Shown: positions 7,699 to 28,491 of the stretch, in pieces | How the letters are laid out: every line of letters starts with the position of its first letter | Position numbering within the stretch: the first letter of the stretch is position 1 | NCBI GenBank assembly: GCA_031292015.1 | Contig: JARLHY010000093.1 | Coordinates: 1 to 35,239, forward strand | Length of the DNA: 35,239 bases | Source: Negativicutes bacterium | Lineage (GTDB): Bacteria > Bacillota_C > Negativicutes > Sporomusales_B > JARLHX01 | Direction: 5' to 3' | Position numbers and translations under genes: made by a program | The notes under the pieces: model-generated | What the model saw: only the letters and a program-made list of their open reading frames with translations | Databases searched by the model: none | Told to the model about the DNA's origin: nothing

Positions 7699-7815
7699 TC
7701 CACATATCCCCTCAGTTGATATATTTTTCATTCACGGCACATGCCAAAACAGTTAATCTTAACCATTATTATACCGGCTTCCTCACCTGCAGGCCAGCAG
7801 AACCTATTTCCTTGG

Positions 7816-7877
7816 AAACAGCAAACAGGCCAAGGCACTCCCCTAGGAATGCCCTGGCCTTCCATCGCCTGATCAGC
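7816..7877 (-). promoter_or_regulatory. Leader element L1 (switch hairpin plus terminator) upstream of the transketolase/RuBisCO-like unit
   Basis: On the - strand, GCU GA UCAG (7877-7869) is followed after a short loop by UGGA A GGC (ending at 7857). The GGC starts an 11-bp terminator stem AGGCCAGGGCA/UGCCUUGGCCU with one G-U pair. The first hairpin is imperfect here (an A-G mismatch and a G-U pair), making this the least regular copy, and the U tract is weak (GUUUGCUGUUU). The element begins about 8 bases after the DUF1858 stop and ends 118 bases before the start codon. A TATAAT at about 7770 without a good -35 lies in the remaining leader. Confidence 0.6.
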
Positions 7878-7885
7878 CGACGTCT

Positions 7886-8074
7886 TTACGCAGCTTTGTT
7901 CAAGTCCGCGATTAATGCGTCGATATCGATGCCGTGGGCCAAAGCGCCTTGTTCGATGTTTTCGAACCGGGCGGCTGCGCAGCCGAAGCAGCCCATGCCG
8001 TGGTTGCGAAATACTTCGATGGTGTTCGGATATTGCCTGACAACATCACCGATACCCATTTCTTTTGTGATCAT
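7886..8074 (-). CDS. DUF1858 domain protein (small CxxC protein)
   Basis: A 62-residue protein formed by one DUF1858 domain: an N-terminal GIGDVVRQYP helix, then HGMGCFGCAAARFENIEQGALAHGID with a CxxC pair (C29, C32), the family hallmark that may bind a metal or a redox ligand. ATG 8074 is preferred to ATG 8095 because AAGGAGG stands eight bases upstream of it. It lies 64 bases downstream of the amidohydrolase with no terminator between, so they are probably co-transcribed. Such proteins occur in many anaerobes, often fused to or beside iron-sulfur redox proteins; no biochemical role can be assigned here. Confidence 0.8.
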   Translation of the reverse strand: MITKEMGIGDVVRQYPNTIEVFRNHGMGCFGCAAARFENIEQGALAHGIDIDALIADLNKAA

Positions 8075-8138
8075 TGGTTGTCCCTCCTTATTCAATGTAA
8101 AACATTGCCCGGAAAACCCTGATTATGACCTGGCAAAA

Positions 8139-9506
8139 TCAGATCTGATAGTCGTAAACAGGTTTCGTACAGCGCACGGCTTTTCCGGCCTTCCCGTCCA
8201 AGAGCCTACCCCAGTCGAGTGCAGCCCTGCCGTTAACAAAAACATACTCGATGCCTTCGGGAAAAGCGTTCGGCAAGCCGAAATCGGCTTTATCGACAAT
8301 ACCGTGGATGTCAAACACCACCAGATCCGCGTCCATGCCTTCCCTGAGCCGCCCCTTTGTGCTGAAGCCCAGGGTCTCGGCCGGCAACAGGCTGGCTTTG
8401 CGGACAGCTTCCATCAGGTTGAGTTCGTAGCGTTCGGTGACCATCTTTTTGAAGAAGCGGGGGAAACTGCCGGCGATTTGCGGATGTCCCTCGCCAGGCG
8501 AATATGGACCGGCATCGGTGGAGGGCATGGCATACGGATGATTCAGTGCCATGTATATTTCTTCTTCGATACCGGTAATAACAACCACCGCCGTATCAGG
8601 AGCCGTGTCACGCAGTTCATGGTACATAGCCGGATTCAGCCTCCGGCCTTTATACTTGCCGGTGATGACCAAAATGTCCTTCAGGTCCCAGGAGTTCGCT
8701 TCCAGATAATCCTTATTGAACAAAGCCGCCCCGATATGGGTTGCCCACTGGGTGTACATGCCGCTGTCAAACCGGATGTCCAGGCCGTCCGCCCTGGCTT
8801 TGTCGATGACCGCCAGCGCTTCGTTCATGACTCCTGTGCCATACTGATACACCAAATGAGACACCTGGATGCGCGCCCCGGTCTGGCGGGCAATGGCGAT
8901 GGCCTCGACGAGCGAGTACATATCGGTGCCTGTGGCCATACGGGTATCTATGGCAACAATTCGGCCATACCTGGCAGCCAGTCTGCTCAGCCGCAATATT
9001 TCCTCGTCAGAACTGCCGGGAGCATAGCCCAACCCTAAGGAAAGACCGCACGCGCCTTCCTCAAACGCTTTTTCCACCAGATACTCCATTTGGGATATCT
9101 GCTCGGGTCTTGCCGGTTGCAGCGGGTCAACCGCCCCTACCGCCTCGCGCAGACTCATGGAGTGGCCGAAAAGTTCGGCTTGATTGATGATGAACCCGTT
9201 GTCTTCCTGGGCACCAAAAAACGAGTCGATATCAAGGGGGCTGGCGCCGCAGTTACCGCCGACAGTGGTGGTGATCCCCTGCCGCAGGGAAAGTTCGCCG
9301 CAATATCTGTCCAGATCGACGTGGCCGTGGATATCGATAAAACCGGGGCAGACGATGCTGCCGGAAGCGTCGATTTCCCTGGCGCCATGGATTTCCTCCC
9401 TTGTTACGGCCGCAATTTTCCCTTCCTTTATTCCGACATTGCCGGCGGAGCGGGTAAGTTTTTCCGGATCAATCAGGATACCGTTGGTTATCACTGTGTC
9501 GAACAT
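8139..9506 (-). CDS. D-aminoacylase / N-acyl-D-amino-acid deacylase-like amidohydrolase
   Basis: A 455-residue metal-dependent amidohydrolase, cytoplasmic. The N-terminal beta-sandwich runs into PGFIDIHGHVD (H60, H62 metal ligands); GGNCGASP follows (C86, the cysteine ligand typical of D-aminoacylases), then VSHLVYQ (His near 220), PSTDAGPYSPGEGHPQ (the family Asp) and FSTKGRLREGMDADLVVFD at the C-terminal sandwich. The family cleaves N-acyl groups from D-amino acids or related amides. In this setting an N-acylated sulfur amino acid is an attractive but unproven substrate. It is preceded by leader element L2, and the ribosome site (GGTGATGAG) is weak. Related dihydroorotase- or hydantoinase-type enzymes are less likely because of the GNCG motif. 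Confidence 0.8.
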   Translation of the reverse strand: MFDTVITNGILIDPEKLTRSAGNVGIKEGKIAAVTREEIHGAREIDASGSIVCPGFIDIHGHVDLDRYCGELSLRQGITTTVGGNCGASPLDIDSFFGAQEDNGFIINQAELFGHSMSLREAVGAVDPLQPARPEQISQMEYLVEKAFEEGACGLSLGLGYAPGSSDEEILRLSRLAARYGRIVAIDTRMATGTDMYSLVEAIAIARQTGARIQVSHLVYQYGTGVMNEALAVIDKARADGLDIRFDSGMYTQWATHIGAALFNKDYLEANSWDLKDILVITGKYKGRRLNPAMYHELRDTAPDTAVVVITGIEEEIYMALNHPYAMPSTDAGPYSPGEGHPQIAGSFPRFFKKMVTERYELNLMEAVRKASLLPAETLGFSTKGRLREGMDADLVVFDIHGIVDKADFGLPNAFPEGIEYVFVNGRAALDWGRLLDGKAGKAVRCTKPVYDYQI

Positions 9507-9569
9507 TTCTCATCACCGCCCGCGAAATAGATCTATTTTTGCTGTTGCAAGGTCAAAGAATCAACTGGG

Positions 9570-9629
9570 AAAGAAAGACCAAGATCCAACACTGTGGAGA
9601 GTCTTGGCCTTCAGGCGGTCTGATCCGGC
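9570..9629 (-). promoter_or_regulatory. Leader element L2 upstream of the amidohydrolase
   Basis: On the - strand GCC GGA UCAG (from 9629), loop ACCGC, CUGA A GGC (ending 9607). The upper stem pairs perfectly and this copy carries one extra G in the internal loop. The GGC begins a terminator stem GGCCAAGA/UCUUGGUC (one G-U pair) followed by UUUCUUU. The element lies between metY and the amidohydrolase, 64 bases before the amidohydrolase start. No separate promoter is evident in the short gap after metY, so it may act on read-through transcription. Confidence 0.68.
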
Positions 9630-9655
9630 AGGCGTGATTTGGCTGCGTAGAAGCC

Positions 9656-10990
<1,335 letters not shown>

Positions 10991-10991
10991 T

Positions 10992-11055
10992 CAAAAGAAA
11001 AAGGCTGAAGAAGCGGCGATTTGCCACTTCTTCAGCCTTCAGGTTTCTGATCGGC
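10992..11055 (-). promoter_or_regulatory. Leader element L3 upstream of metY
   Basis: On the - strand GCC GA UCAG (from 11055), loop AAAC, CUGA A GGC (ending 11035), exactly matching the consensus. The terminator is the longest of the set: AAGGCUGAAGAAG pairs over 13 bp with CUUCUUCAGCCUU, an inner GGC/GCC extends it, and UUUUUCUUUU follows. It lies 50 bases before the metY start and 64 bases after the cysK1 stop. No strong promoter is seen in that gap. Confidence 0.72.
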
Positions 11056-11118
11056 TCGCTATCGGTTTATCGGGCCACGGCTTCATAGGAAGCTCCGAAG
11101 CCAAAGTTTAAGAAAGTC

Positions 11119-12054
11119 TTACTGTTTTTCGAACAGCACGGTGGAAAGGTAGCGTTCACCGGTGTCGGGCAGCAGGGCCACGATGGTCTTCCCGGCGTTT
11201 TCCGGCCTGAGGGCCAGTTGGGTGGCAGCGTAGGCCGCCGCTCCGCTGGAAATGCCTACAAGCAGTCCCTCGTTTTTGGCCAGTTCCCGGGCCGTCTCGA
11301 AGGCGTCTTCGTTTTTCACCTGAATAATTTCATCAATTATTTTTACGTTCAGAACATCAGGTACGAAGCCTGGGCCGATACCCTGAATCTTGTGCGGGCC
11401 GGGTTTGCCGCCCGACAGCACCGGGGAATCGAAAGGCTCCACGGCAACAAGCTTGAAGCCAGGTTTGCGGGATTTTAGGACTTCCCCCACGCCGGTAATC
11501 GTCCCGCCGGTGCCGACGCCGCCGACAAAGATGTCGACCTGGCCGTCGGTATCCTGCCAGATTTCTTCGGCGGTGGTTTTGCGGTGAATTTCGGGGTTCG
11601 CAGGATTTTTGAACTGCTGTGGCACGAAAGAGTTGGGGGTTTCGGCCGCGAGGGCCTCGGCCCGGCGAATTGCCCCAGGCATGCCTTCCGTCCCGGGGGT
11701 CAGTACCAGTTCCGCTCCCAGCGCCCGCAGCAGATTTCGACGCTCAATACTGAAGGTCTCGGGCATGGTCAGGATCAGGCGGTACCCTTTTGCCGCCGCG
11801 ACGAAAGCCAGGGCTATGCCGGTGTTGCCGCTGGTCGGCTCAATGATGACGCTGTCTTTTTTGAGTATGCCTCTGTCTTCAGCATCCTTGATCATGGCGT
11901 AGCCGATCCGGTCTTTCACGCTGCCCAATGGGTTAAAATACTCCAGCTTGGCGAGCAGTCTGGCTTTCACTCCCTTGGCGGCGCTGTAGTTGTTCAGTTC
12001 CAGCAGTGGTGTCCCGCCTACAAGTTCCGTAAGATTCCGCGCGATTTTTGCCAT
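11119..12054 (-). CDS. cysK: Cysteine synthase A-type O-acetylserine sulfhydrylase (copy 1)
   Basis: A 311-residue fold type II PLP enzyme making cysteine from O-acetylserine and sulfide. Motifs in order: [10 protein letters not shown], the PLP lysine in [10 protein letters not shown] (K47), the substrate loop [10 protein letters not shown] near 83, the phosphate-binding [10 protein letters not shown] near 180, [11 protein letters not shown] near 213 and [11 protein letters not shown] near 268. It has the normal length for CysK and no extra domain such as CBS, so cystathionine beta-synthase is unlikely. AAGGAGG lies upstream of ATG 12054. It has its own consensus promoter and leader element L4. 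A close paralogue is encoded at 31985-32917, next to the second nitrogenase-like pair. Confidence 0.93.
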
Positions 12055-12143
12055 TTTGAATCATCCTCCTTAACGTTGGTTCCGATTTCTCCAAGCCTGT
12101 GGTTTGGGTAAAAAACCGCCGATGGTATTGCGGTCAGTTCTTT

Positions 12144-12212
12144 GAAAAAAATAAACAGGCTAAGGTGTTTCCCCTGCGGGAACGACCTTAGCCTTCAGAA
12201 TTTCTGATCAGC
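12144..12212 (-). promoter_or_regulatory. Leader element L4 upstream of cysK1
   Basis: On the - strand GCU GA UCAG (from 12212), loop AAAUU, CUGA A GGC (ending 12191). The same GGC starts the terminator stem AGGCUAAGGU/ACCUUAGCCU (12194-12185 with 12166-12157), topped by GUUCCC/GGGAAA-like pairing and followed by GUUUAUUUUUUU. The promoter at 12234-12262 lies just upstream, so this copy belongs to the 5' leader of cysK1, about 20 nt from the expected RNA start. The rest of the leader runs 90 bases to the start codon. Confidence 0.75.
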
Positions 12213-12233
12213 TCGGATTTGATTGTTGGACTT

Positions 12234-12262
12234 ATTTTATACCTTCAGCTGATTTCTGTCAA
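12234..12262 (-). promoter_or_regulatory. Housekeeping-type promoter for cysK1
   Basis: On the - strand a perfect -35 TTGACA (12262-12257), 17-base spacer, then -10 TAAAAT (12239-12234). It lies between the stop of the DUF2292 gene and leader element L4. Transcription should begin near 12227. It shows that L4 is part of the cysK1 leader and not merely a terminator for the upstream gene. Confidence 0.75.
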
Positions 12263-12286
12263 TATACTCTGAAATAATATCCGACG

Positions 12287-12652
12287 TCAGATGCCGTCGC
12301 CGTGCTGGCCTTCCATCCGGTTCCAGCGGGTTTTCTCGTTGCGTTCAATCTGAACTGCTTTCCCGTTTTCCACCATGAGGATAACCTGGCCGAATTTCAA
12401 CCCGAACAGAGCCCGGATCACCCTGCTGCGCAATACCGGGTTGCGGTCCCGCGTCGCCTTCGGCAAAAGTCTGGGGGTGCCGTCGAGCCGGATTTTTTCC
12501 CCCAGGTCGATTTGAATCAAACGCGCATCCTGGACAGTCAGCACAATGCTGCCGAAACTGGTTGTCGCCACCGCATCCTCGATACGGTTCAGCACCTTTT
12601 CACTGATGTTGCTTGTCGACAATTGCCAGTACCCGTTTTCTGCGGCACTCAT
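12287..12652 (-). CDS. Tandem DUF2292 (YezD-like) small protein, partner of nitrogenase-like pair 1
   Basis: A 121-residue protein containing two copies of the DUF2292 pattern (helix, then F/Y-G-x-V/I, a short beta strand, xGRxIQI and EKxR). Copy 1 is about residues 20-55 (TSFGSIVLTVQDARLIQI, then EKIRL) and copy 2 about 75-110 (LKFGQVILMVENGKAVQI, then EKTRW). It ends in HGDGI, exactly like its paralogue at 28674-29021. Single-domain relatives are usually about 60 residues; I recall them near sulfur-assimilation genes but cannot check. ATG 12652 follows GAGGAGGTGAG, 21 bases after the K1 stop. Being last in both nitrogenase-like units suggests a shared accessory role such as assembly, a small subunit or regulation. 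Confidence 0.8.
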   Translation of the reverse strand: MSAAENGYWQLSTSNISEKVLNRIEDAVATTSFGSIVLTVQDARLIQIDLGEKIRLDGTPRLLPKATRDRNPVLRSRVIRALFGLKFGQVILMVENGKAVQIERNEKTRWNRMEGQHGDGI

Positions 12653-12673
12653 AGCAGACTCACCTCCTCTTGG

Positions 12674-14020
12674 TCATCTGGCCGAAATAATGGCACTAAC
12701 CAGATCTTCCACCAGACACAGGCCGCCGTTGAAACCGGTGTAGCCCCGGTTCAGGACGGCCCTGTTGGCTACAGGAAAACTAACGCTCAAGTGGGCGGCG
12801 CTTAAGTCTTTGGCCAGTTCCCGCTCCAAAGAACTGCCGATCACAAAGGCCGGCGCCGGGGGATTGCTGTACTTCCCGCCGTCGCCGCTGCGGTTTCGCC
12901 AGTGGGAATACACCTTGTTCCTGATGGTCGAAGTGTCGGCGTCGAAAAAAATCTTTGGCGACAGGCCGGACTGAAGACCTGTCCCCCGGGCGGCGACCCT
13001 CTGTTGCTGGGCGTCATCCAGGATGTCGGTGACCACAACGGCCTCAGGCAGCCAGCCCAAATCGTCAGCCAGGAAACGGGTAATGGATGACGCATAGTTG
13101 GAATCGGCCACCACCGCGAAATAGCGCTGCAGATCCATATCGTTGAAGCAGTCGGTGAGAGGATCCAGCAGCTGGTAATAGCGCTGGTTTTCCCGGCGAA
13201 TCAGCGCCTGGGTCTCCTTAAGGGGTAAATCAAGGCGTGTTGCCACATTAGTCAAGAATTCGCTGGCCGCGGACGGCCCTATCGGCAGCGGCGCTATAAG
13301 GTACGGTATATCATGGATTTCCTTGCTTAGGTCAGCCGCCTGCCAGCCCAGCACATCGGAAACGACGATATTCAGCTCGGCGCTGCCGGCCTGACGGATG
13401 CCTTCCAGGCTATCGTCGACGGTGAAGAATGCATTCACTTCCAACCCCAGCTTAGTAAGCAGCGCTCGCAGCTCCAGCAGATTGCCGCGCCAGAAAACGT
13501 CGAAATAAGGGGCGATACCCCACAGGTTGACTTTCTTGCGCTGCTTGACGGGACTGGCCGGGACATAGTTTTGCAGCAGGCTTTCCAGCACCAGTTCGTA
13601 GCCGCGGTAGGAGTTCCCCCGGAAGCCGCCGGTTTCGGCGTAAAGAATCGGGACACCGGCCTCGGCCAACGGATTGACCACCGAACCCACATCATCGCCG
13701 ATCATCTCGGTGACGCAGCTGGTCAGGACGAAATACAGCTTGCCGTCCATCACCTTCAAGGTGTTCTCCACCTGCTCGGCCAGACGTTCGCCGCCGCCGA
13801 AGACTACTTCGCGTTCCTGAACGTTGGTTCCGGGCATGCTCAGCCCGCCGCAGTAACCGCCCACCTGGAGGCCGCAGCCGCCGGCCTGGGTCCAGGCTAG
13901 ATTGCCGGCGCAGCCGGGCGGGGCGTGAACGATGTGAATGGTTTGTGGCAGGGCGGAAACGGTGGCGATCGCTCCGCCTAGGGCGCAGGTGAAGCGCGGC
14001 CGTTCGACAAAACTGCTCAT
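12674..14020 (-). CDS. Nitrogenase-like component 1 beta subunit (NifK/NifN-type), copy 1
   Basis: A 448-residue member of the nitrogenase component 1 superfamily. Three cysteines match the NifK P-cluster ligands by position and context: FTCALGGA (C12), PPGCAGN (C37) and TSCVTEMIGDD (C102), the last matching the NifK TTCMAEVIGDD segment. Conserved context includes FVERPRF at the start and KVMDGKLYFV. The start is ATG 14020, overlapping the D1 stop by one base (TGATG) behind GGGGAGG; the frame's 18-codon upstream extension lies inside D1 and is ignored. Together with D1 it should form an alpha2beta2 reductase. The lack of the NifK N-terminal extension and the sulfur context argue against nitrogen fixation. 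Methylthio-alkane reductase (MarK) is the closest known functional idea. Confidence 0.85.
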   Translation of the reverse strand: MSSFVERPRFTCALGGAIATVSALPQTIHIVHAPPGCAGNLAWTQAGGCGLQVGGYCGGLSMPGTNVQEREVVFGGGERLAEQVENTLKVMDGKLYFVLTSCVTEMIGDDVGSVVNPLAEAGVPILYAETGGFRGNSYRGYELVLESLLQNYVPASPVKQRKKVNLWGIAPYFDVFWRGNLLELRALLTKLGLEVNAFFTVDDSLEGIRQAGSAELNIVVSDVLGWQAADLSKEIHDIPYLIAPLPIGPSAASEFLTNVATRLDLPLKETQALIRRENQRYYQLLDPLTDCFNDMDLQRYFAVVADSNYASSITRFLADDLGWLPEAVVVTDILDDAQQQRVAARGTGLQSGLSPKIFFDADTSTIRNKVYSHWRNRSGDGGKYSNPPAPAFVIGSSLERELAKDLSAAHLSVSFPVANRAVLNRGYTGFNGGLCLVEDLVSAIISAR

Positions 14021-15504
14021 CAGGCCTCCCCTCCCACTGTCTTGATATAGGTAAACGGATCCTGGCCGTACCATTCCTCCCGATACGGGAGCTTCAGCCA
14101 GTTAGCCAGGTTGCGGTTGAAGCGCGGGTTGACCAGTTGGCGGTGCAGGCGCCTGGCCAGCTGATAGGCACCCTGATAGCCGACGAATTGCAGGCCGACG
14201 TTGTAGATGACGTTGGTTGCCACCCCGGCCTTGGCGGCGGTGGCATTGCCGTTCATATGGCCGAGAAAGACGTCGGGCTGAAGCCGCCGGATAAGGTTGG
14301 CCTCCTCAAACGGCTGGCAGTTGGCGACATTCAGCGTCAGATCCTCGCTGGTGATATTGATCAGCTTGTCGTATTCCGCGTCAGCGAATTCGTCATGATG
14401 GAACGACCTGACGGCAACCACCTCAAAGCCAAGCTCGGCCAACAGAATCGAGGTCGCCAAAGCGCGAAACTCCCCGGCGCTGACAAATGCCTTTTTTCCG
14501 GCAAATGTCGGCCGGAGTTCGGCCAGAGCTGCTTCCAGTTCGGCCTCCTCCCGGGCGATCAGCGCCTCGGCTTTCTCTTCCCAGCCGAAGTGCCGGGCCA
14601 CGCTTCGCAGCCATTCGCCGGTGTTGCGGATACCGATGGGCATATGTTTCAGTTCATAGGGAATGCCGTATTTCTCCTGTAAATGGTTGAGCAGATAGTC
14701 GTCGTGGGTCGGGCAGGTGCTGACCGACAACTGGGCATGGGTAAGACGGTACATATTTTCCGGCTTGGCGAAAACAGGAAAAATGTTGACCTCCAGGTCC
14801 AGCGCTTTTAGCAGCCGTTCCAGCTCCACTTCGTCAACCCGGCCCATGGAAGAGACGTTCATCAGATTTACGGTCGGGTGGTCGGGTCGGGCCAGGGCCA
14901 GATTCTCGGCGGTATCCTGCAGCATCACCCGGCCGACGGCGTGATAGACGGCGTCATAGGCTGTTGCCCAGATCTTGGTTTTGAAACCTTCGCAGTGCAC
15001 CGGCAGCAATTTGGCGCACACCTCAGGCTGCAACTGCTCGGTCAGGCCGTCGATGTCATCGCCGATAATGCCGGGAACGCATCCGGCCACCACGAAGATG
15101 ATGCTCGGCCGAAAGCGGCGGTCGGCTTCCCTGATGGCGGCAGCCAGCTTTTCCTCACCGCCGCCGATCACCTCGGCCTCAGAAAGAGCGGTGGACAGCC
15201 AGGTGCCGTCCTTGACGACGCCCCAGCGCTGCGTATTGCCGCTCCGCACCGCGGCGTTGCCGCCGTGGGCCGACGAACCGCAGCCGATGGCTCCATGCAT
15301 GAGAACGACGCTGTCAGGGATGCTGTTCATCATGCCAAGGGCTGGCAGCAGCAGGCAAATGGAATTCTGTGAAAAAGAACGCTCGCCGTCCGGCTGGCAG
15401 CAACGAAGGCGCTTCACCACGCCGGACAGGGAACCGCCGCAGGCAATGCAGGCGTTTAGACGTCCTTCCCGTTTAGGCGGTTCTCTTTGCTCCAAATAGC
15501 TCAT
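14020..15504 (-). CDS. Nitrogenase-like component 1 alpha subunit (NifD/NifE-type), copy 1
   Basis: A 494-residue component 1 subunit. Cysteines equivalent to the three NifD P-cluster ligands are in QNSIC (C50), GAIGCGSS (C75) and AGCVPGIIGDDIDGL (C142). C264 in VSTCPTHDDY, before LQEKYGIP, aligns with NifD Cys275, the cofactor ligand. The region matching NifD His442 reads LQFVGYQGAYQ, with no His. An extra Cys-rich N-terminal segment (C19, C22, C35, C36) is present. VHCEGFKTK near 169-177 is shared with D2 and resembles NifE/NifD. The ATG follows AGAGGAGGGAGAAAT. No NifH-like protein is encoded in the window. A metallocluster-bearing reductase acting on an organosulfur compound is inferred from the neighbours. 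Confidence 0.85.
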   Translation of the reverse strand: MSYLEQREPPKREGRLNACIACGGSLSGVVKRLRCCQPDGERSFSQNSICLLLPALGMMNSIPDSVVLMHGAIGCGSSAHGGNAAVRSGNTQRWGVVKDGTWLSTALSEAEVIGGGEEKLAAAIREADRRFRPSIIFVVAGCVPGIIGDDIDGLTEQLQPEVCAKLLPVHCEGFKTKIWATAYDAVYHAVGRVMLQDTAENLALARPDHPTVNLMNVSSMGRVDEVELERLLKALDLEVNIFPVFAKPENMYRLTHAQLSVSTCPTHDDYLLNHLQEKYGIPYELKHMPIGIRNTGEWLRSVARHFGWEEKAEALIAREEAELEAALAELRPTFAGKKAFVSAGEFRALATSILLAELGFEVVAVRSFHHDEFADAEYDKLINITSEDLTLNVANCQPFEEANLIRRLQPDVFLGHMNGNATAAKAGVATNVIYNVGLQFVGYQGAYQLARRLHRQLVNPRFNRNLANWLKLPYREEWYGQDPFTYIKTVGGEA

Positions 15505-15558
15505 ATTTCTCCCTCCTCTTGCGGCTTGTCGCCGCTAGTGCCGGCATAACATCAAAAA

Positions 15559-16590: not shown

Positions 16591-16633
16591 TGCACATTCC
16601 TCCTTTATTGGGTCATTGATGAGGTTTAGGTTG

Positions 16634-18153: not shown

Positions 18154-18195
18154 GTTAGTCAGTCTCAGGAAAGCCAGCGCAATCAGTCCTTTCTG

Positions 18196-19266: not shown

Positions 19267-19308
19267 TCGCGTTCACTCCTTGTCGTTTGTTTGCCTTTAC
19301 AGGGAAAT

Positions 19309-20970: not shown

Positions 20971-20972
20971 CT

Positions 20973-21989: not shown

Positions 21990-23065
21990 TATTGTCCAAC
22001 TCCCCCTGCCAGCAATTTATCCGCATTTACCGGATACCCGATTTCCCTGACTGTGGCCAGCATGGCGTCGATGTTGGCGAAGGGGGTCTCGGTCGGCAGG
22101 CTGCAGCCGCTGGCGACGATATAGCCTTTGGGATTGTCATGGCCCTGGGCGACGCATTCGCGCACCGCCGCCCGTACGTCGGCAGGCGTCCCCTGGAGCA
22201 TGACCTCCGAGGGCTTGATGTTGCCCATCAGCCTCGCCCGGTGGCCGACTTTTTCCTTGGCCGCAAGGAGGCTGGCAGCGTTGTCGATGCTGAGGCAGTC
22301 GGCCCCGGCGTCGCACATGTCCGGCCAGATTTTCGCCGTTTTGCCGCAGATATGAAGAGTCACGGTTTTGCCGCGGGAATGGATGTAGTCGATCAGCCGC
22401 TTCAGGTAGGGAAAAGCGAATTCGCGAAACTGGCCGGGGCTGATGACTGTGGAGGATGACATGGGATCGGTCAGGCTGGGACTGCAGCCTGCGTCGATAA
22501 TGGCCTGGGAGTAGCGCAGGGCGGTTTCCAGCGACAGCTCGCAAAGCCGGTGCACGGCCTGGGAGTCTTTGCCCACCAGCCTGACAAGGTTTTCGGTGCC
22601 GATAAGAAAGGATGCGTTGGTGAAAGGGCCGGTTACGGCGCCGGTCACGGCCACCTCTTGACCGACCGCGTCCACAGCGATTTTCATGGCCTCGAGATGC
22701 TGGGGCAGATTGCCGTCCCGGTAAGGGTCAGCCGGTTTGAGAGCATCGATTTCTTCCACTGCGGTTATAGCCGGTGCTTCAAGATAGGCGGTTTCATCGG
22801 CCGGATAGCGGACCTTCGCCCCCATCGCTTCGGCCTGGCCGTAAAGATCGGTAAAAATACGGATGATATCATAGCCAAACCGCCGGTAGGCGGCGATCTG
22901 CGCCGCAGCGATCAATTTACCGTTCCCGCGGAAATCGGCCACTTTGACGCCGAGCACCCGGGCGGCGGTGTTGCCGACAATCGGCACGCACGGCAACCTG
23001 TCGATGGCTTGGTTCCGGTTGTAAGCGCCGAGCCGCTCCAGCGGGGTCATCTGATCTTTGGACAT
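21989..23065 (-). CDS. UroD-family corrinoid methyltransferase 3
   Basis: A 358-residue relative of MtaA/MtsA/CmuA. The zinc-thiolate residues are H238, C240 (TLHICGKT) and C321 (VASGCSLP). It has TGPFTNASFLIG (about 145-156) and LTDPMSSSTVISP (about 198-210), the counterpart of the active-site segment in methyltransferase 2. Its ATG overlaps the corrinoid protein stop (TGATG) after a GGTGG ribosome site, so the two proteins are made from one message in linked amounts. It is clearly diverged from methyltransferase 2 and not a recent duplicate. Likely acts on the corrinoid protein directly upstream; methyl donor unknown. Confidence 0.87.
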   Translation of the reverse strand: MSKDQMTPLERLGAYNRNQAIDRLPCVPIVGNTAARVLGVKVADFRGNGKLIAAAQIAAYRRFGYDIIRIFTDLYGQAEAMGAKVRYPADETAYLEAPAITAVEEIDALKPADPYRDGNLPQHLEAMKIAVDAVGQEVAVTGAVTGPFTNASFLIGTENLVRLVGKDSQAVHRLCELSLETALRYSQAIIDAGCSPSLTDPMSSSTVISPGQFREFAFPYLKRLIDYIHSRGKTVTLHICGKTAKIWPDMCDAGADCLSIDNAASLLAAKEKVGHRARLMGNIKPSEVMLQGTPADVRAAVRECVAQGHDNPKGYIVASGCSLPTETPFANIDAMLATVREIGYPVNADKLLAGGVGQ

Positions 23066-23721
23066 CAGCTGCCACCACCCAACAGACTCCTTACCTTTCG
23101 CACCGCTTCCGTGGCGTTGGCGGCATAAGCGTCGGCGCCGATCTTGTCGGCGAAGGACTGGGACACCGGCCCGCCGCCGATAATAACCCGGAAAGAATCC
23201 CGGCGATTTCCCTCCTGCAGGAGCCGGATGACTTCAAACATGCCGTCCATGGTGGTGGTCATCAGGGTGGAAACAGCGATGATCTTTGCCCCTGTCTCGA
23301 CGGCCTTGCCGACGAATTCCGCCGGCGGAATGTCCCGGCCGAGGTCGATCAGCTCGAAACCCGCCGTTTCCAGCATAATCTTGACGATGTTTTTGCCGAT
23401 GTCGTGGGTGTCGCCTTCGACGACGCCGATCACGATCTTGTGTTTTTCGGCGGCGTCATCGGTCTTAAGGTGGGGCCGCAGTACATCGAGGCCGGCGTAC
23501 ATCGCGTCAGAGCACATCAGCAGTTCGGGGATGAAGTATTCTTCCTCCTCAAACAGGCGCCCGGCGCGTTCCATTCCGTCGGCCAATCCTTTTTCGATGC
23601 CTTCGTACGCGTCGATACCTGCGGCGATGACCGCCCCGGCGGCCTCAACCGCCCCTTCCTCCTCCATCTCCAGCACCGCGTCGGACAAATCATGCAGCAG
23701 TTCTTCCTTAGCCTTTGTCAT
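23065..23721 (-). CDS. Methyltransferase corrinoid-binding protein (MtaC/MtbC/MtsB-like)
   Basis: A 218-residue cobalamin-binding shuttle protein. An N-terminal four-helix cap (about residues 1-90, with GLADGMERAGRLFEEEEYFIPELL) precedes the Rossmann-type B12 domain with EGDTHDIGKNIV, whose His106 is the base-off lower ligand of cobalt; VSTLMTTTM near 150 and GGGPV near 185 are the other B12-contact loops. ATG 23721 follows CAGGAGGTAGAG; the frame's earlier start at 23745 lacks a site. It is the first gene of the eleven-gene unit and directly follows leader element L5. It would carry the methyl group between the UroD-family enzymes and be reactivated by the RACo-type protein. Confidence 0.92.
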   Translation of the reverse strand: MTKAKEELLHDLSDAVLEMEEEGAVEAAGAVIAAGIDAYEGIEKGLADGMERAGRLFEEEEYFIPELLMCSDAMYAGLDVLRPHLKTDDAAEKHKIVIGVVEGDTHDIGKNIVKIMLETAGFELIDLGRDIPPAEFVGKAVETGAKIIAVSTLMTTTMDGMFEVIRLLQEGNRRDSFRVIIGGGPVSQSFADKIGADAYAANATEAVRKVRSLLGGGS

Positions 23722-23771
23722 GGCTCTACCTCCTGTTTCAAACAAAAATGGGTTATGATACGTTTCCAGCG

Positions 23772-23836
23772 AAACAACAAAAGGCTAAAGAGAAGGGACT
23801 AGCCCATCATCTTTAGCCTTCAGTTCACTGATCAGC
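23772..23836 (-). promoter_or_regulatory. Leader element L5 upstream of the corrinoid/nitrogenase-like unit
   Basis: On the - strand GCU GA UCAG (from 23836), loop UGAA, CUGA A GGC (ending 23816), a perfect consensus copy. The terminator stem is AAGGCUAAAGA/UCUUUAGCCUU (23820-23810 with 23791-23781) with an inner GGG/CCC, followed by UUGUUGUUU. It lies 51 bases before the corrinoid protein start and controls access to about 11.4 kb of genes. A possible -10 (TAAAAT, 12 bases upstream of the element) lacks a good -35. Confidence 0.73.
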
Positions 23837-23896
23837 TTGTTATGATTCATTTTATCCGCGCACCAAAGCAAACGTGCCTGGGGGGACAGAAAATAG

Positions 23897-24919
23897 TCAG
23901 TTGACTCCTTCCAGCCTGACGAACACCCGGCGCTTGAGTACTGCTTCGCTTGTAGTCGGTTCGAGGACACCAATCGACTTCATTTCGGTGATCGCCAAGT
24001 CTACTGCTTTTTCACCGCCGTCCACCGACGGGATGTAGTTGTAAGACTTCAAAAGTTTGGCGATCAGCTCGACATTCCCCGGCACGTACTTCTTCTCGAC
24101 CATCAGCTTCGCCGCTTCGTCCTGGTTGGCGGCTACCCACTTGGCGCCTTTCATCAGCGCCCTGGTCACGGCGGCCGCACCGGCGGGATCTTCTTTCAGG
24201 AATTTGCCGCTGATGGTGGCCATGCAGCAGTATTCCTGGCTGTAGGGCTGGTCATCGGCGGTGTTGATCAGCTTGCGCGCCTTGCCTTTTTCAACGATAA
24301 GCTGGGAGATGGGATCGGACAGGGTAATGGCCGCCACCTCGCCCCGGTCAAGCGCTCCTTCCAGTTCGGTTGCCGGAAAAGCGCGCCACTGAACATCCTT
24401 CTTGGGGTCGACGTTGGCCTTGGCGAGGGCTCGCATGGTGAAAACCATCGGGCCGTCCCCCATGCCGTTGTTGCCGATGGTCTTGCCTTTGAGGTCGGCC
24501 ACTGTCTTGATGTCGGAGCCTGTGGGCACCAGCGTCTGGATGCAGCCGGTATGGATACCAGCGGTAAACGAGGCGTTGACGCCTTGTTCAAAGGGTTTGA
24601 CCCACTTCATGACCATGCCGTTGGCGGCCTCGATTTTGCCGGTAGTCAACGCCTCTTTCAGGGTTTCGAAATCGACCTTCACCAGTTCGACCTCCAGCCC
24701 TTCCTCTTTAAAGAAACCTTTTTCATAGGCCGAATAGATAAAGGCCTCGCAGGCTCCGCCGGCGTAGCCGATCTTGATTTTTTTCGGCCCCTGGGCCTGC
24801 TGGGCGCTCTGACTTTTGCCGCAGCCGGCCGCCAGCAGCAAAACTCCGGTCAGCAGGAAAACAGACAGCATAACAGCCAGTACCCGGAATCGCGGGGAAT
24901 GCTTCAGCTTTTTGGGCAT
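23897..24919 (-). CDS. ABC importer substrate-binding lipoprotein 2 (SsuA/NMT1-like)
   Basis: A 340-residue lipoprotein with a long hydrophobic leader ending in the lipobox LLAAGC (Cys33 lipidated). The mature domain is a type II periplasmic binding protein (KIGYAGGACEAFIYSAYEKGFFKEEGLEVELV). It carries a vicinal cysteine pair C231-C232 (SQEYCCMATISG), matching the position of the pair in binding protein 1, plus further cysteines at 57 and 126. ATG 24919 follows TGAGGAGGAGAAAA. It is last in a permease-ATPase-SBP unit headed by L6, the reverse gene order of importer 1. Ligand unknown, probably an organosulfur compound. Confidence 0.86.
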   Translation of the reverse strand: MPKKLKHSPRFRVLAVMLSVFLLTGVLLLAAGCGKSQSAQQAQGPKKIKIGYAGGACEAFIYSAYEKGFFKEEGLEVELVKVDFETLKEALTTGKIEAANGMVMKWVKPFEQGVNASFTAGIHTGCIQTLVPTGSDIKTVADLKGKTIGNNGMGDGPMVFTMRALAKANVDPKKDVQWRAFPATELEGALDRGEVAAITLSDPISQLIVEKGKARKLINTADDQPYSQEYCCMATISGKFLKEDPAGAAAVTRALMKGAKWVAANQDEAAKLMVEKKYVPGNVELIAKLLKSYNYIPSVDGGEKAVDLAITEMKSIGVLEPTTSEAVLKRRVFVRLEGVN

Positions 24920-24939
24920 TTTTTCTCCTCCTCAGGCTT

Positions 24940-25749
24940 TTATAAGTAATAGTCAGGTGAATCATCATGAGCCAGCTGGAACAACTCCAGCACTTCCGAG
25001 CGGATACGGAAAAAATCGGGATAATTCCGCCGCCGCGGCCGCTCCAGGCGAACATCGGCGATCTTTACCACCTTGCCGGGGCGCGGGGTCATGACGATGA
25101 TCCGGTCGGCAAGATAAACGGCTTCGTCGATATCGTGGGTGACGAAAACCATGGTGGTTCCCCGGTCCTGCCAGATGCGGAGGATTTCCTCCTGCATCTT
25201 CATCCGGGTGAAAGCGTCCAGCGCGCCGAGCGGTTCGTCCAGCAGCAGTACTTTGGGATGGTTAACCAGCGCCCGGGCCAGCGCGGCCCGCTGGGCCATG
25301 CCGCCGGACAACTGGTAGGGATAGGCGTTTTCAAAGCCGTCGAGTCCCACCAGGCTGATATAGTCGTCGATATCGCAGCGCTGTTTCCAGGGGAGGCCCC
25401 GGGCGTCCCAGCCTGTAGCCACATTTTCCCGCACCGTTTTCCAGGGAAAAAGGGTCGGATCCTGGAAAACCAGACCTCTTGTATAATGGGGGCCGGTGAC
25501 TTTTTCCCCGTCCAGGGTAATGACCCCGGCACCGGGCGAATCCAGCCCGGCTATCAGCCTCAGCAGCGTTGACTTGCCGCAGCCGCTGGGCCCGAGCAGG
25601 CAGACGAACTCTCCCGCACCGATGGTCAGGTCGACGGATGCCAGAGCTACAACCTCGGCCCCGGCGGCGTCGTGAAAAATCTTGCCGACACCATGGATGT
25701 CCAAGCGCCCGGCTGTTTCCTTTGCAGTCAGACTCTGCGCCCCTACCAT
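24940..25749 (-). CDS. ABC importer ATPase 2 (SsuB/TauB-type)
   Basis: A 269-residue nucleotide-binding subunit: Walker A GPSGCGKST, Q-loop FQDPTLFPW, signature LSGGMAQRAALARA, Walker B VLLLDEPLGALD and switch VTHDIDEAVYLADR. The start is ATG 25749, which overlaps the permease stop in ATGGTAG and has AAGGGG nine bases upstream. The long in-frame extension to 26028 lies inside the permease gene in another frame and is not coding. It is cytoplasmic and couples ATP hydrolysis to uptake through permease 2. It differs clearly from ATPase 1, so the two importers are separate systems and not a recent duplication. Confidence 0.92.
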   Translation of the reverse strand: MVGAQSLTAKETAGRLDIHGVGKIFHDAAGAEVVALASVDLTIGAGEFVCLLGPSGCGKSTLLRLIAGLDSPGAGVITLDGEKVTGPHYTRGLVFQDPTLFPWKTVRENVATGWDARGLPWKQRCDIDDYISLVGLDGFENAYPYQLSGGMAQRAALARALVNHPKVLLLDEPLGALDAFTRMKMQEEILRIWQDRGTTMVFVTHDIDEAVYLADRIIVMTPRPGKVVKIADVRLERPRRRNYPDFFRIRSEVLELFQLAHDDSPDYYL

Positions 25750-26756
25750 TTGATCAGCCCCTTCTGCCACGCCAAAACCCTGTCCCGGAAGCGGAAGAGC
25801 AGCGTGATGATGGCAGAGAACAGCAGCGACATGACGATGAGGGCCGCGTAAACCTTGCCGTATTCGGCCCAGCCCTGGGCCCAGGTGATGAACCAGCCCA
25901 AACCGGCCTTGACACCGAGCATTTCGCCGACGATCAGGGTGACAAAGGACATCCCCAGCCCCATGAATAGTCCGACGAAGATGGTCGGCAGCGCCGCAGG
26001 CAGGGCCACGCGGCTGACCAGGTACCACTCGCTGGCCCCAAGGCTGCGGGCCACCTCATAATAGGACTTGTTTACATTGGCGATGCCCGACCAGGTCATC
26101 ACAGTGAGGGGAAACCAGCAGGACAACGCGATAAGAAAGACGCTGGCGGTGAAGCTTGTCGGAAAAACCACCATGGCTATGGGAATCCAGGCTGTGGCCG
26201 GGATGGGGCCTATTACCCGCAGCAGCGGATTCAGCCAGTAGTGAAAGCGGGGCGACCAGCCCATCAGGACGCCGGTGGGCAGGCCGACCGCCAAGCCGAT
26301 GGCGTAGCCGATGGCGAGCAGCCGCAGGGAGTGAAGGACACTGAGTCCAAGGATATCCCGCTCGCTGATCAGTGCCGCCAGCACCACCGCCGGCGACGGA
26401 AAATAGGGCAGCGGCAGCAGGGCGAACTTTAAAGTGACCAGATCCCATACGATGATAACCCCGATCAGCGCGGTCAGCAGCGGTGCCTTCACCAACAGGG
26501 AATTCCACCAGGCTGGGCGAAGAGTGGCCACCGTTGTGGTGCAGGCATAAACCAGTGGAAAGCCGATGACGAGTGCCCGGAAATACTGTCCCTGAAACAT
26601 CGGCTGACTATTGGCCAATAGCAGGTATTCCCCCAGCAGAACCAGAGAAGCTGCAAGTGGTAACCCTAAAACGGCCCAGGTTTTCGGATGATGTTTGACG
26701 CTGGAGTTTGCGGAAAAGTTGCTGTTTGCGGTCAGTTCCGTTATACCGTCCGGCAT
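25743..26756 (-). CDS. ABC importer permease 2 (SsuC/TauC-type, N-terminally extended)
   Basis: A 337-residue membrane permease, longer than the usual 250-270 residues. The core has the EAA-type loop (EVARSLGASEWYLVSRVALPAALP, about 245-268). The extra N-terminal part (residues 25-115) contributes additional hydrophobic segments (TWAVLGLPLAASLVLLGEY and YFRALVIGFPLVYACTTTV), so about eight helices are expected. ATG 26756 follows CAAGGAGGAAACAACT; the frame's earlier start at 26801 lies within leader element L6. First gene of importer unit 2. An N-terminal extension of this kind is found in some members of the family; its role is unknown. Confidence 0.87.
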   Translation of the reverse strand: MPDGITELTANSNFSANSSVKHHPKTWAVLGLPLAASLVLLGEYLLLANSQPMFQGQYFRALVIGFPLVYACTTTVATLRPAWWNSLLVKAPLLTALIGVIIVWDLVTLKFALLPLPYFPSPAVVLAALISERDILGLSVLHSLRLLAIGYAIGLAVGLPTGVLMGWSPRFHYWLNPLLRVIGPIPATAWIPIAMVVFPTSFTASVFLIALSCWFPLTVMTWSGIANVNKSYYEVARSLGASEWYLVSRVALPAALPTIFVGLFMGLGMSFVTLIVGEMLGVKAGLGWFITWAQGWAEYGKVYAALIVMSLLFSAIITLLFRFRDRVLAWQKGLIKW

Positions 26757-26771
26757 AGTTGTTTCCTCCTT

Positions 26772-26834
26772 GAAAAAGTCGCAGGCCGGGCTCCGCCACA
26801 AGGGCGATTCCCGGCCTTCAGTCTTCTGATCAGC
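26772..26834 (-). promoter_or_regulatory. Leader element L6 upstream of importer 2
   Basis: On the - strand GCU GA UCAG (from 26834), loop AAGA, CUGA A GGC (ending 26814). The terminator arm has changed on both sides relative to other copies (AGGCCGGG with CCCGGCCU, plus an inner UCGCC/GGCGG), so pairing is kept while sequence is not. UUUUU follows. The element ends only 16 bases before the start codon, with the ribosome site AAGGAGG directly behind the U tract. Confidence 0.72.
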
Positions 26835-26860
26835 CTATTAGGTGTTTGATTTCTGACTAC

Positions 26861-27520
26861 CTATTCTTCTGGTTGCAGCAGGCGTTTGTAGTAAAAACCG
26901 CTGGTGTACAGCGCCGCCGCCGGATTGTGACCCAGCACCCGGTCCTTGGTGATCAGGGTGGTCACCGGCGCATCGGAATATTTGATAAAGAGCGAGTCGT
27001 GCCCCACACACAAGCCGACAATGACGTTGAGGTCAGCCTGCCATTCATTCAGCAGTCTGGCCTGCAGCACAGGATTGCACATCGATTCATGGCAGCCTTT
27101 TTGAACCTTGAATTCCGGCGGGACACCGATTTCGGTTTTATCCACCGCCCCGACCTTGCACAGTACGGCGTACCCCTTAAGCCCCTTGGCCTGAAGAATA
27201 TCCTGAAATATCTTCGCTTCCTGGATAAGTCCGATGCAGGTGGCGATGCCGATCTTTTCGGCGCCCAGTCGCTTGGCGAAGGCGATGATTTCCTCCACTC
27301 GGGTCAGCTTGCCATAGTAAACGCCTTCCACTTCGGCAGCCGCCTTGGCGATGGCGGCCGTCTGAGCGTCTTTCTTGTATTCTTCGGTCACGGCGTCTGC
27401 CTGTGGCTGCGCTTTGGTTGTCAGGCAAAATTCGGGAAAGTTTTTATCCCGGCGATAACAATTGAGGACACCGCAGGAGCTGCAGGACAGTTCGCGGCTT
27501 GGCTGGTTACTCTTGGCCAT
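26861..27520 (-). CDS. DUF1847 metal-binding-like protein
   Basis: A 219-residue cysteine-rich cytoplasmic protein of the DUF1847 family. An N-terminal cluster CSSCGVLNCY plus a following Cys (FCLT) looks like a zinc or Fe-S site; further conserved cysteines lie in IGIATCIG (about 95), VLCKVGA (about 121), KGCHESMCNP (about 144-149) and GLCVGHD (about 171). It starts behind AAAGGAGA 52 bases after the DUF169 gene, with no terminator between, so both belong to the L7 unit. No enzymatic function is established for the family as far as I know; the many cysteines suggest a metal, cofactor or thiol-related role. Confidence 0.85.
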   Translation of the reverse strand: MAKSNQPSRELSCSSCGVLNCYRRDKNFPEFCLTTKAQPQADAVTEEYKKDAQTAAIAKAAAEVEGVYYGKLTRVEEIIAFAKRLGAEKIGIATCIGLIQEAKIFQDILQAKGLKGYAVLCKVGAVDKTEIGVPPEFKVQKGCHESMCNPVLQARLLNEWQADLNVIVGLCVGHDSLFIKYSDAPVTTLITKDRVLGHNPAAALYTSGFYYKRLLQPEE

Positions 27521-27572
27521 ATAGATCTCCTTTGTTTATGTCTTTCGGACAGTTTCAGAGTGCCTGCCGCCG

Positions 27573-28358
27573 CTATGGTTTGCTGCCTGTCTCTTTCCAC
27601 ATCGCCGCCAGTTGCTGGTACTTTGGCGGGAATTCCGCCTCAACCTTCAGATTTACCGGGATGGGATAGCGGACTCCCCCTCTTTCGGTCCCTTCCAGGC
27701 CCCTCAGCAGTTCGTCGAGACGGTGGAAAGGAATGCTGAAACACATTTCGTGATCCTGGGTCAGACCGAATACCCGATCGCCGTAGCAGGGCAATATCAC
27801 TTTGGCCTCACCATCCCGGCGGGTACCGATAATCATGTCGGCGCAGTCGGCCCGCGGCGACGCCGTCGCCGGCAGCGTTCCGCCTTTTGCGAACAGGGCC
27901 CCTGCGGCCAGCCGCATAACCTGGGCCGAGTTGGCGTAGACAACGACTACCTCTGGTTCGAAATCGGCCCGCCGTAGCGGCCCGACCAGGATGGTGCCGG
28001 CCTCGCCCGGACCGAGCTTTGGTATCGCCGCTTCGGCTTTAGCTCCTGCTTCCAGCGTCTCGCAGTACATTCCGGCGGCGAGGTTTCCCTGCTCGTAGTA
28101 GGGAATTAGCGGGGCATAGCCAAAGACGGTTTGGGCGATGGGGCAGGACTGGTCAGCGGCGCCGACAGCAAGTGTCCAGCCATAGCGCCTGGCCATGCCT
28201 ACCGCCTGGCAAACGCTCAGTCTTGTTCCAAGATCGCGCTCCGGTCGTTTGGCCTTGGCCGGCACCGGCTCACCCGGCTTCAGCACCCGGATGGCCAATG
28301 GGAAGGTATCCGGCCTGATATAGCGCTCCAGTTCCTGGGCTACCGTTTCATAAGACAT
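27573..28358 (-). CDS. DUF169 family protein
   Basis: A 261-residue protein of the DUF169 (COG2043) family: LERYIRPDTFPLAIRVLKPGEPVP at the N-terminus, CQAVGMARRYGWTLAV near 50, CPIAQTVFG near 72, LVGPLRRADFEPEVVVVYANSAQ near 124 and SPRADCADMIIGTRRDGEAKVILPCYGDR near 167-195, followed by EMCFSIPF. Cysteines recur at C50, C72, C171 and C191. No signal peptide or membrane segment is seen. ATG 28358 follows TTAGGAGG. It is preceded by a promoter (28492-28520) and leader element L7 and followed by the DUF1847 gene. Function unknown; membership of the same leader-controlled set ties it to the sulfur theme by inference. Confidence 0.85.
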   Translation of the reverse strand: MSYETVAQELERYIRPDTFPLAIRVLKPGEPVPAKAKRPERDLGTRLSVCQAVGMARRYGWTLAVGAADQSCPIAQTVFGYAPLIPYYEQGNLAAGMYCETLEAGAKAEAAIPKLGPGEAGTILVGPLRRADFEPEVVVVYANSAQVMRLAAGALFAKGGTLPATASPRADCADMIIGTRRDGEAKVILPCYGDRVFGLTQDHEMCFSIPFHRLDELLRGLEGTERGGVRYPIPVNLKVEAEFPPKYQQLAAMWKETGSKP

Positions 28359-28382
28359 GGTTCGACCTCCTAAAAAATGTGC

Positions 28383-28455
28383 TAAAAAAAGAACAAGGCT
28401 AAAGAAAGTTTTCAGCGAAAACTATTTCTTCAGCCTTCAATCGTTATTGATCGGC
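28383..28455 (-). promoter_or_regulatory. Leader element L7 upstream of the DUF169/DUF1847 unit
   Basis: On the - strand GCC GA UCAA (from 28455), loop UAACGA, UUGA A GGC (ending 28433). The fourth stem pair is A-U here and G-C elsewhere, a compensated change that supports the hairpin. The terminator AAGGCUGAAGAAA pairs with UUUCUUUAGCCUU (one G-U), continues with AGUUUU/GAAAAC around a CGCU loop and is followed by GUUCUUUUUUU. A promoter lies just upstream at 28492-28520. The element ends 25 bases before the start codon. Confidence 0.73.
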
Positions 28456-28491
28456 ACCGACAGTATGTAACTGGGAAATTAGATTAATGAT

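Follow-up and report, generated by a model that had tools for sequence, protein, structure and literature searches.

Control of transcription through leader RNA is known from several bacterial systems. In BglG/LicT systems, the ribonucleic antiterminator (RAT) is a protein-dependent hairpin that overlaps an intrinsic terminator, and the BglG gene lies beside its own terminators. ANTAR RNAs are small sites before terminators; they consist of two hairpins with hexaloops in which A1 and G4 are fixed. PyrR promotes termination at the pyr attenuators, which lie downstream of its gene in the operon, and acts in trans on further copies; the order of regulator first and attenuator second is common to PyrR and BglG. 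The S-adenosylmethionine (SAM) riboswitch (RF00162) controls sulfur genes through leader terminators. The OscA gene forms a transcription unit with the gene of a sulfate-binding protein and has been tied to sulfur starvation and Cr(VI) resistance (PMC3596284 and PMC2996968, in passages that both cite Viti 2009), and OscA is described in a passage of PMC2996968 as small and of unknown function. Here we describe an RNA element that occurs seven times in a 35,239-nucleotide stretch of Negativicutes DNA (contig JARLHY010000093.1 of assembly GCA_031292015.1, positions 1 to 35,239; hereafter the window), together with genes of the DUF2292 family (OscA/YezD; PF10055). DUF2292 is likely to be the RNA-binding antiterminator of a sulfur-supply attenuation regulon in which the seven copies would be its sites.

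The element shares one or more traits with each of these systems and differs from each. As in BglG/LicT systems, a hairpin overlaps an intrinsic terminator and a putative regulator gene lies beside it, but the RNA consensus is different and the DUF2292 proteins of the window match only DUF2292 in Pfam (E <= 0.001), with neither CAT-RBD nor PRD. Like ANTAR RNAs, the element is a small hairpin site before a terminator; unlike them, it has one hairpin upstream of the terminator and a loop of variable length, which places it outside the ANTAR definition. The gene order and the apparent action in trans recall PyrR, whereas hairpin binding here should prevent termination rather than promote it, and neither the protein nor the RNA is related to the pyr system. 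Leader terminator control of sulfur genes is shared with the SAM riboswitch, which even stands upstream of DUF2292 in four loci described below, but the element itself has no Rfam match. A scan of the window with Rfam 15 at gathering thresholds gave 0 matches, and E values up to 5 gave five (two CD-box snoRNA, one HACA-box snoRNA, one lncRNA and one antisense RNA family), none of which overlaps an element. Among 20 related loci, Rfam found SAM riboswitches only, none of them coinciding with the element, and 14 loci from the phyla of locus L057 and of Pseudomonas gave 0 matches. Among the papers listed in a literature search, which covered mainly non-subscription papers, none gives an account of this RNA or of DUF2292 as RNA-binding, and the searched parts of the RNA-discovery literature including PMC11109978 do not describe the element. 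The initial annotation had recognized no described family and had named a significant Rfam match as evidence against itself; no such match occurred. If the reading is right, Rfam would gain a family that many bacteria carry ahead of genes for nitrogenase-like reductases, for the use of organosulfur compounds, for cysteine/methionine synthesis and for sulfate uptake.

A search of the window with a covariance model (R2) recovered all seven leaders on the (-) strand where the initial annotation had placed them. They are copy 1 at 7816-7881 (R2 match 7822-7881), copy 2 at 9570-9629 (9571-9625), copy 3 at 10992-11061 (10997-11059), copy 4 at 12144-12218 (12152-12216), copy 5 at 23772-23842 (23777-23840), copy 6 at 26772-26840 (26778-26838), and copy 7 at 28383-28461 (28391-28459). 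Their E values range from 1.7e-12 to 3.5e-5, and the next matches in the window have E values of 0.051 and 0.26. The 73 training rows of R2 include copies 3, 4 and 7; the other four copies are absent from training. A fixed-spacing pattern allowing up to 3 mismatches gave 13 matches in the window against 3.35 expected (maximum over 100 shuffles, 8). Four of the seven leaders are among these 13, and the remaining three differ in loop length. Alignment of the seven copies gives the core RGCYGAUCAG, loop, CUGAAGGCY; the 5' arm of the terminator that comes next starts at this GGCY. In other words, GGC serves both as the 3' part of the hairpin and as the start of the terminator, as had been proposed, and in the wider set the A preceding GGC also joins the terminator 5' arm (A-U in 72 of 73). 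The shared hairpin consensus that had been proposed stands for the common core but is not perfect in two copies. The upper stem of copy 1 is broken by one mismatch (UCAG/UGGA, 3 of 4 pairs), and copy 2 carries one additional G before GATCAG, because of which its R2 match begins only at position 8. Copy 7 has the compensatory stem UCAA/UUGA.

Evidence that the hairpin is conserved as a structure comes from comparison of many genomes. The cleanest set comprises 74 R2 matches in 89 loci around DUF2292 genes and is free of motif-rule filtering. The upper stem, which R2 models, pairs in 99.7% of cells in this set, and all 4 of its pairs show both-sided changes. Pairing of the lower stem, which is not part of R2, is complete (218 of 218 cells, 100%), with both-sided changes at 2 of 3 pairs; sliding controls gave 19 to 59%. 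Stem variants around DUF2292 genes (UCAG/CUGA, CCAG/CUGG, CCGG/CCGG, CUAG/CUAG, GCAG/CUGC and UUAG/CUAA) preserve pairing. A pairing-blind scan, in which GYYGA, AGGY and a terminator were fixed and loop lengths of 3 to 8 were allowed, was run on 278 partly overlapping sequences (1.89 Mb), some of which had been fetched by the pattern or by a model (R1), both of which reward the core. It yielded 238 unique sites. In 209 of these the upper stem is fully paired (four pairs); 21 different combinations occur, and UCAG/CUGA accounts for 131 of the paired sites. The reversed-sequence control yielded 19 sites and 0 with four pairs. A filter demanding the lower-stem pairs retained 266 sites against 5 in reversed sequence. 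Among 73 aligned variants, which had been chosen for pairing, both-sided changes occur at 7 of 8 hairpin pairs, and the terminator covaries as well. The bases 5' of GATCAG, outside the scan pattern, are G in 95, C in 93, and a pyrimidine in 99 of 101 rows. The invariance of GA, A and G in alignments A2 (which omits 10 near-duplicates) and A5 (73 of 115 sequences) is uninformative because the search rules fixed those bases. The hairpin loop shows a preference for A only, and its length varies.

These data bear on the simplest alternative, namely that the elements are plain terminators, or that a DNA operator (palindrome CTGATCAG) adjoins them, with no RNA switch. The Bacillota copies do have a good terminator and the commonest variant contains the palindrome, but the internal loop of GA opposite A, which lies outside the terminator stem, is retained in 72 of 74 R2 matches, a check limited by R2 itself rewarding the GA/A bases and the upper stem. 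Conservation beyond the terminator stem had been claimed at the outset and is confirmed by this count. The palindrome is limited to the UCAG/CUGA variant (142 of 266 sites), and other variants pair across the loop without this palindrome; the operator was therefore rejected, and the alternative as a whole is highly improbable. A kink-turn reading of the GA/A loop was also dropped, because by eye the 3' strand is A-G-G and not G-A, a misfit to the kink-turn pattern.

The hairpin and the terminator are mutually exclusive helices with a common strand, and covariation is present in both, as expected of an attenuation leader. In each of the 282 elements compared, all of which had been selected for pairing, the terminator is more stable than the hairpin (medians -21.1 versus -7.4 kcal/mol). 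The antiterminator/terminator layout suggested earlier thus has the backing of covariation in both alternative helices and of the energy order, and the element with its attenuation layout is close to certain. With the terminator favored, read-through must require that something hold the hairpin, and termination by default, with a hairpin that needs help, would be the expected behavior. In the proposed mechanism, the leader RNA would form either the short hairpin (stem R-G-C-Y/G-G-C-Y, internal loop of GA opposite A, 4-bp upper stem, and A-rich loop) or an intrinsic terminator with the 3' strand of the hairpin for its 5' arm. The default state would be OFF, since the terminator is favored. When sulfur is short, DUF2292 would bind the hairpin by recognizing the conserved GA/A loop, the bound hairpin would block the terminator, and RNA polymerase would read into the sulfur genes. 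In this scheme, the binding of DUF2292 to the hairpin, its effect in favor of read-through and the trigger, sulfur limitation, are inferred.

What points to DUF2292 as the partner? The initial annotation had identified no RNA-binding protein in the window, and this needs correction: two DUF2292 genes are present, each directly upstream of a copy, and the family tracks the element across genomes and in phages. The gene at 12287-12652 (-) lies directly upstream of copy 4 and encodes 121 aa with two PF10055 stretches (80.6 bits, cut-off 22). The gene at 28674-29021 (-) lies directly upstream of copy 7 and encodes 115 aa, again with two stretches (77.5 bits, cut-off 22). Both products are putative RNA-binding antiterminators, and they are 47% identical. 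All 12 genomes that had been picked for elements have PF10055 (12 of 12); of 14 control genomes, only that of Bacillus subtilis does. Taxonomic samples, in which the element was counted at R2 E <= 1e-4, gave the same association. Among 151 genomes of the class of Priestia (Bacilli), 56 have the element, 59 have PF10055 and 54 have both (Fisher p 2e-32); among 249 of the phylum of Pelosinus, the numbers are 32, 41 and 27 (p 5e-21), some of these genomes being common to both samples. Among 148 of the phylum of L057, they are 9, 10 and 7 (p 2e-8), with one R2 row coming from a genome of this sample (G009). Elements are rare in PF10055-negative genomes (2 of 92, 5 of 208 and 2 of 138 in the same order), a result independent of the training of R2. 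The proposed role of DUF2292 as an RNA-binding antiterminator is well supported by linkage.

The position of DUF2292 relative to the element is also informative. In 80 DUF2292 loci, an element (E <= 0.01) lies up to 400 nt downstream of the domain match in 46 and up to 400 nt upstream in 3. These are 80 of 89 loci, and the nine omitted are second domains or neighbors of listed genes, except for L210 (with L213, a second gene of genome G002), which is preceded by an R1 match at a distance of about 210 nt. Where loci had been retrieved through the pattern only, a DUF2292 gene precedes 12 of 112 elements at up to 700 nt and follows 7 of 118 at the same range. Most elements of the 54 Bacilli genomes that have both features (87 of 132) are over 1 kb away from the nearest DUF2292, which implies action in trans. 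At E <= 1e-4, 19 of these 54 genomes lack an element less than 1 kb from DUF2292, and two of them (G330 and G341) have a weaker copy beside the gene. In four loci (L191 1185-1293, L279 1268-1371, L286 1287-1388 and L287 1745-1850), a SAM riboswitch, DUF2292, the element, and a cysH-like gene (by eye) follow one another in this order. Here the DUF2292 gene stands between two consecutive attenuators.

The same observations serve to weigh a compact riboswitch, in which the GA/A-loop hairpin would bind a sulfur metabolite directly and DUF2292 would be only the most conserved co-regulated gene. A leader position with terminator overlap is typical of riboswitches, many of the targets share one pathway, and SAM riboswitches do stand upstream of DUF2292-cysH operons in some Bacilli. 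However, the conserved unpaired part consists of GA/A and an A-rich loop of variable length, which is very small for an aptamer, and DUF2292, lying mostly upstream of the terminator (the 46 loci versus 3), would escape the control. Two further findings speak against a riboswitch: the same hairpin, apparently without a terminator, follows oscA, and phages carry the hairpin and DUF2292 jointly before short phage genes. A riboswitch is accordingly unlikely, and we return to DUF2292 as the candidate antiterminator.

The first of these findings comes from the phylum of Pseudomonas, where PF10055 is present in 14 of 249 genomes and an R2 element in 2 of 249, neither of which is among the 14. In this phylum, 10 of the 14 DUF2292 genes have a bare hairpin core in the 200 nt that follow them, compared to a rate of 0.007 per 200 nt elsewhere in the loci, and no terminator is visible by eye at these 10 cores. 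The phylum of L057 has the core in 6 of 10 loci, with 0.033 per 200 nt elsewhere. The hairpin rule behind these counts had been relaxed after the sequences were read; under a stricter earlier rule, the core was counted in 3 of 14 loci from the Pseudomonas phylum and in 6 from the L057 phylum. The next gene is sbp-like by eye in L390-L393, L395 and L396, and likewise in L275, L397 and L398, which have no core. Tandem pairs of hairpin cores follow DUF2292 in L366, L368, L369, L371, L394 and L399 with no terminator seen, the first core of L399 being irregular. Sequestration of a Shine-Dalgarno sequence was considered for L371 and dropped, since by eye the next gene plausibly starts farther downstream. 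Weak R2 matches in the Pseudomonas phylum (G654 and G732) and in G422 and G458 are probably due to chance.

The second finding comes from viral contigs. A scan with the C-G variant returned 11 stretches, all 11 with hairpin and terminator, and 8 of the 11 have, upstream and in the same orientation, a small ORF with a match to the DUF2292 profile (E values of 4e-7 to 0.024; L410 and L413 are the weakest). Three phage ORFs tested in Pfam, including that of L413, score above the cut-off (46.9, 42.3 and 26.6 bits). A search of viral contigs with one phage DUF2292 returned 9 contigs, and the element lies downstream on the same strand in 9 of 9. In viral contigs L409, L411, L413, L414, L417, L418 and L419-L427, a divergent DUF2292 gene is followed on its own strand by the hairpin-terminator element, with short phage genes behind it. 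A viral scan with the UCAG variant gave 3 matches, 0 with a terminator, and these were judged to be chance.

A broader proposal, probable on balance but less firm than the antiterminator role itself, is that DUF2292/OscA/YezD form a family of minimal RNA-binding regulators (domain of about 40 residues) with one ancestral GA/A hairpin site. Bacillota and their relatives would have fused the site to terminators, in regulons of up to about 32 copies. Relatives of Pseudomonas would place it without a terminator between oscA and the next gene, often one for sulfate uptake. Phages would have taken up both as a portable antitermination module outside sulfur metabolism.

Several observations weigh against an antiterminator role of DUF2292. 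It is the only protein that was profiled against the element, and may be merely a co-regulated effector. In the Priestia-class and Pelosinus-phylum samples, some R2 rows had been taken beside DUF2292 genes, so that the positives there are not independent. Elements without detected PF10055 occur in 2 of 56 genomes in Bacilli, 5 of 32 in the Pelosinus phylum and 2 of 9 in the L057 phylum. Conversely, PF10055 occurs without an element (E <= 1e-4) in 5 of 59, 14 of 41 and 3 of 10 genomes of these samples and in 14 of 14 of the Pseudomonas phylum; the large searches ran stricter filters, which lose weak matches. Even the bare hairpin core is absent from 4 of the 14 DUF2292 loci of the Pseudomonas phylum. 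On the viral side, 7 of the 9 contigs had first been found via the element (all except L422 and L427), and some are near-duplicates. Finally, among the families listed in searches of the Protein Data Bank (PDB) by sequence and fold, the DUF2292 model has no usable match. The lack of a PDB match and the few element-bearing genomes without detected PF10055 also speak for an arrangement in which another RNA-binding protein or an RNA polymerase factor would read the hairpin and DUF2292 would act indirectly, for example as a sensor subunit. That DUF2292 occurs together with the hairpin in phage contigs argues, indirectly, against such an arrangement, which is improbable. DUF2292 as the antiterminator, if correct, would provide a mechanism for OscA/YezD in the sulfur-starvation response and would define a very small class of RNA-binding antiterminator. 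Because both the protein and its presumed site are so small and are found as a pair in phages, a single binding assay with a single reporter would be enough to test this reading, and the pair may be usable as a portable genetic switch.

How does the protein itself compare with OscA? The DUF2292 proteins of the window resemble OscA/YezD in passing the PF10055 cut-off, and the hairpin core follows the gene in the 10 Pseudomonas-phylum loci described above. Unlike OscA, the protein encoded at 28674-29021 has two domains, and its best NCBIfam match, NF033785 (OscA, 'sulfur starvation response protein'), reaches 50.2 bits against a curated equivalog cut-off of 85; only this copy was scanned. Its predicted structure (mean pLDDT 77) consists of alpha-beta-beta repeats. 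A homology search with P0001 returned 3 proteins, the query among them. In the DUF2292 alignment (A4), proteins of the 'VQDG/S' type stop soon after EKxRL and those of the 'VHDS' type have a C-terminal tail; the latter comprise OscA of Pseudomonas and part of the Bacilli proteins. Genomes of the Sporomusa group often have a two-domain DUF2292 or two adjacent genes.

The genes downstream of the element are largely sulfur genes, and the evidence for a sulfur regulon is strong. A likely downstream ORF was found for 270 of 282 elements, giving 249 distinct proteins, and 150 of these taken at random were assigned to overlapping families at E <= 1e-5 rather than at curated cut-offs, with the 25 commonest families considered. 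The first downstream proteins among the 150 include matches to sulfate-binding protein (18), cysteine synthase A (12), Cys/Met PLP enzymes (7) and PAPS reductase (7). Further matches are to 7 NMT1-like binding proteins, 6 NADPH-FMN reductases, 5 corrinoid-binding domains and 4 nitrogenase-like reductases. The sulfur regulon proposed from the window alone has the support of downstream genes from many genomes, and absence of the element before sulfur genes of related genomes, which would have spoken against it, was not observed: related genomes carry it there.

Pfam matches of the window proteins agree with the downstream genes originally named. Copy 1 precedes the split transketolase/RuBisCO-like unit (6787-7731, 5761-6768 and 4619-5764), copy 2 an amidohydrolase (8139-9506), and copy 3 a Cys/Met PLP enzyme that is MetY-like (9656-10942). 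Copy 4 is flanked by the first DUF2292 gene and a PALP/CysK-like gene (11119-12054). Copy 5 precedes a B12-binding corrinoid protein (23065-23745) and URO-D methyltransferase-like genes. Copy 6 precedes genes for an ABC permease (25743-26801), an ATPase (24940-26028) and an NMT1-type binding protein (23897-24919), and copy 7 is flanked by the second DUF2292 gene and the DUF169/DUF1847 genes (27573-28358 and 26861-27520).

An exact-pattern scan of GTDB species genomes gave at least 119 stretches with at least 123 sites. Among the matches listed, a terminator hairpin is present at 111 of 123 sites; 12 failed the terminator test, one of which (L067) is probably genuine, and four further sites (L017, L028, L043 and L054) were discarded by eye as chance. 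Hosts named among the matches listed are Pelosinus, Sporomusa, Propionispora, Lysinibacillus, Priestia, Brevibacillus, Clostridium tyrobutyricum and 'Deltaproteobacteria' assemblies. A search of twelve such genomes with R1 (E <= 0.01) found 1 to 32 copies per genome, the highest numbers being 32 in Sporomusa sp. KB1 and 24 in Propionispora sp. 2/2-37. R1 matches with E values of 1e-4 to 1e-2 were left unused; some hit both strands (G110 and G251) and look like ordinary terminators. In five Bacilli loci (L003, L050, L076, L079 and L094), GATCAG..CTGAAGG and a long terminator are kept and the lower stem is unpaired, with TAC, TTC or TGC replacing GCY. A near-consensus element (59 bits) lies at L339 1501-1565 (-) in a prophage-like region of genome G090, in which PF10055 was not detected. 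The end of the gene that follows it resembles sigma-70 region 4 or a late-regulator helix-turn-helix (by eye).

Two other features of the window stand close to the element. A 62-aa ORF with a GCFGCA motif lies at 7886-8074 (-), between the amidohydrolase gene and copy 1, and resembles DUF1858. Two nitrogenase-like two-subunit operons (PF00148; 12674-15504 and 29067-31949) have the same arrangement: downstream of each, in the same orientation, come a DUF2292 gene and then an element.

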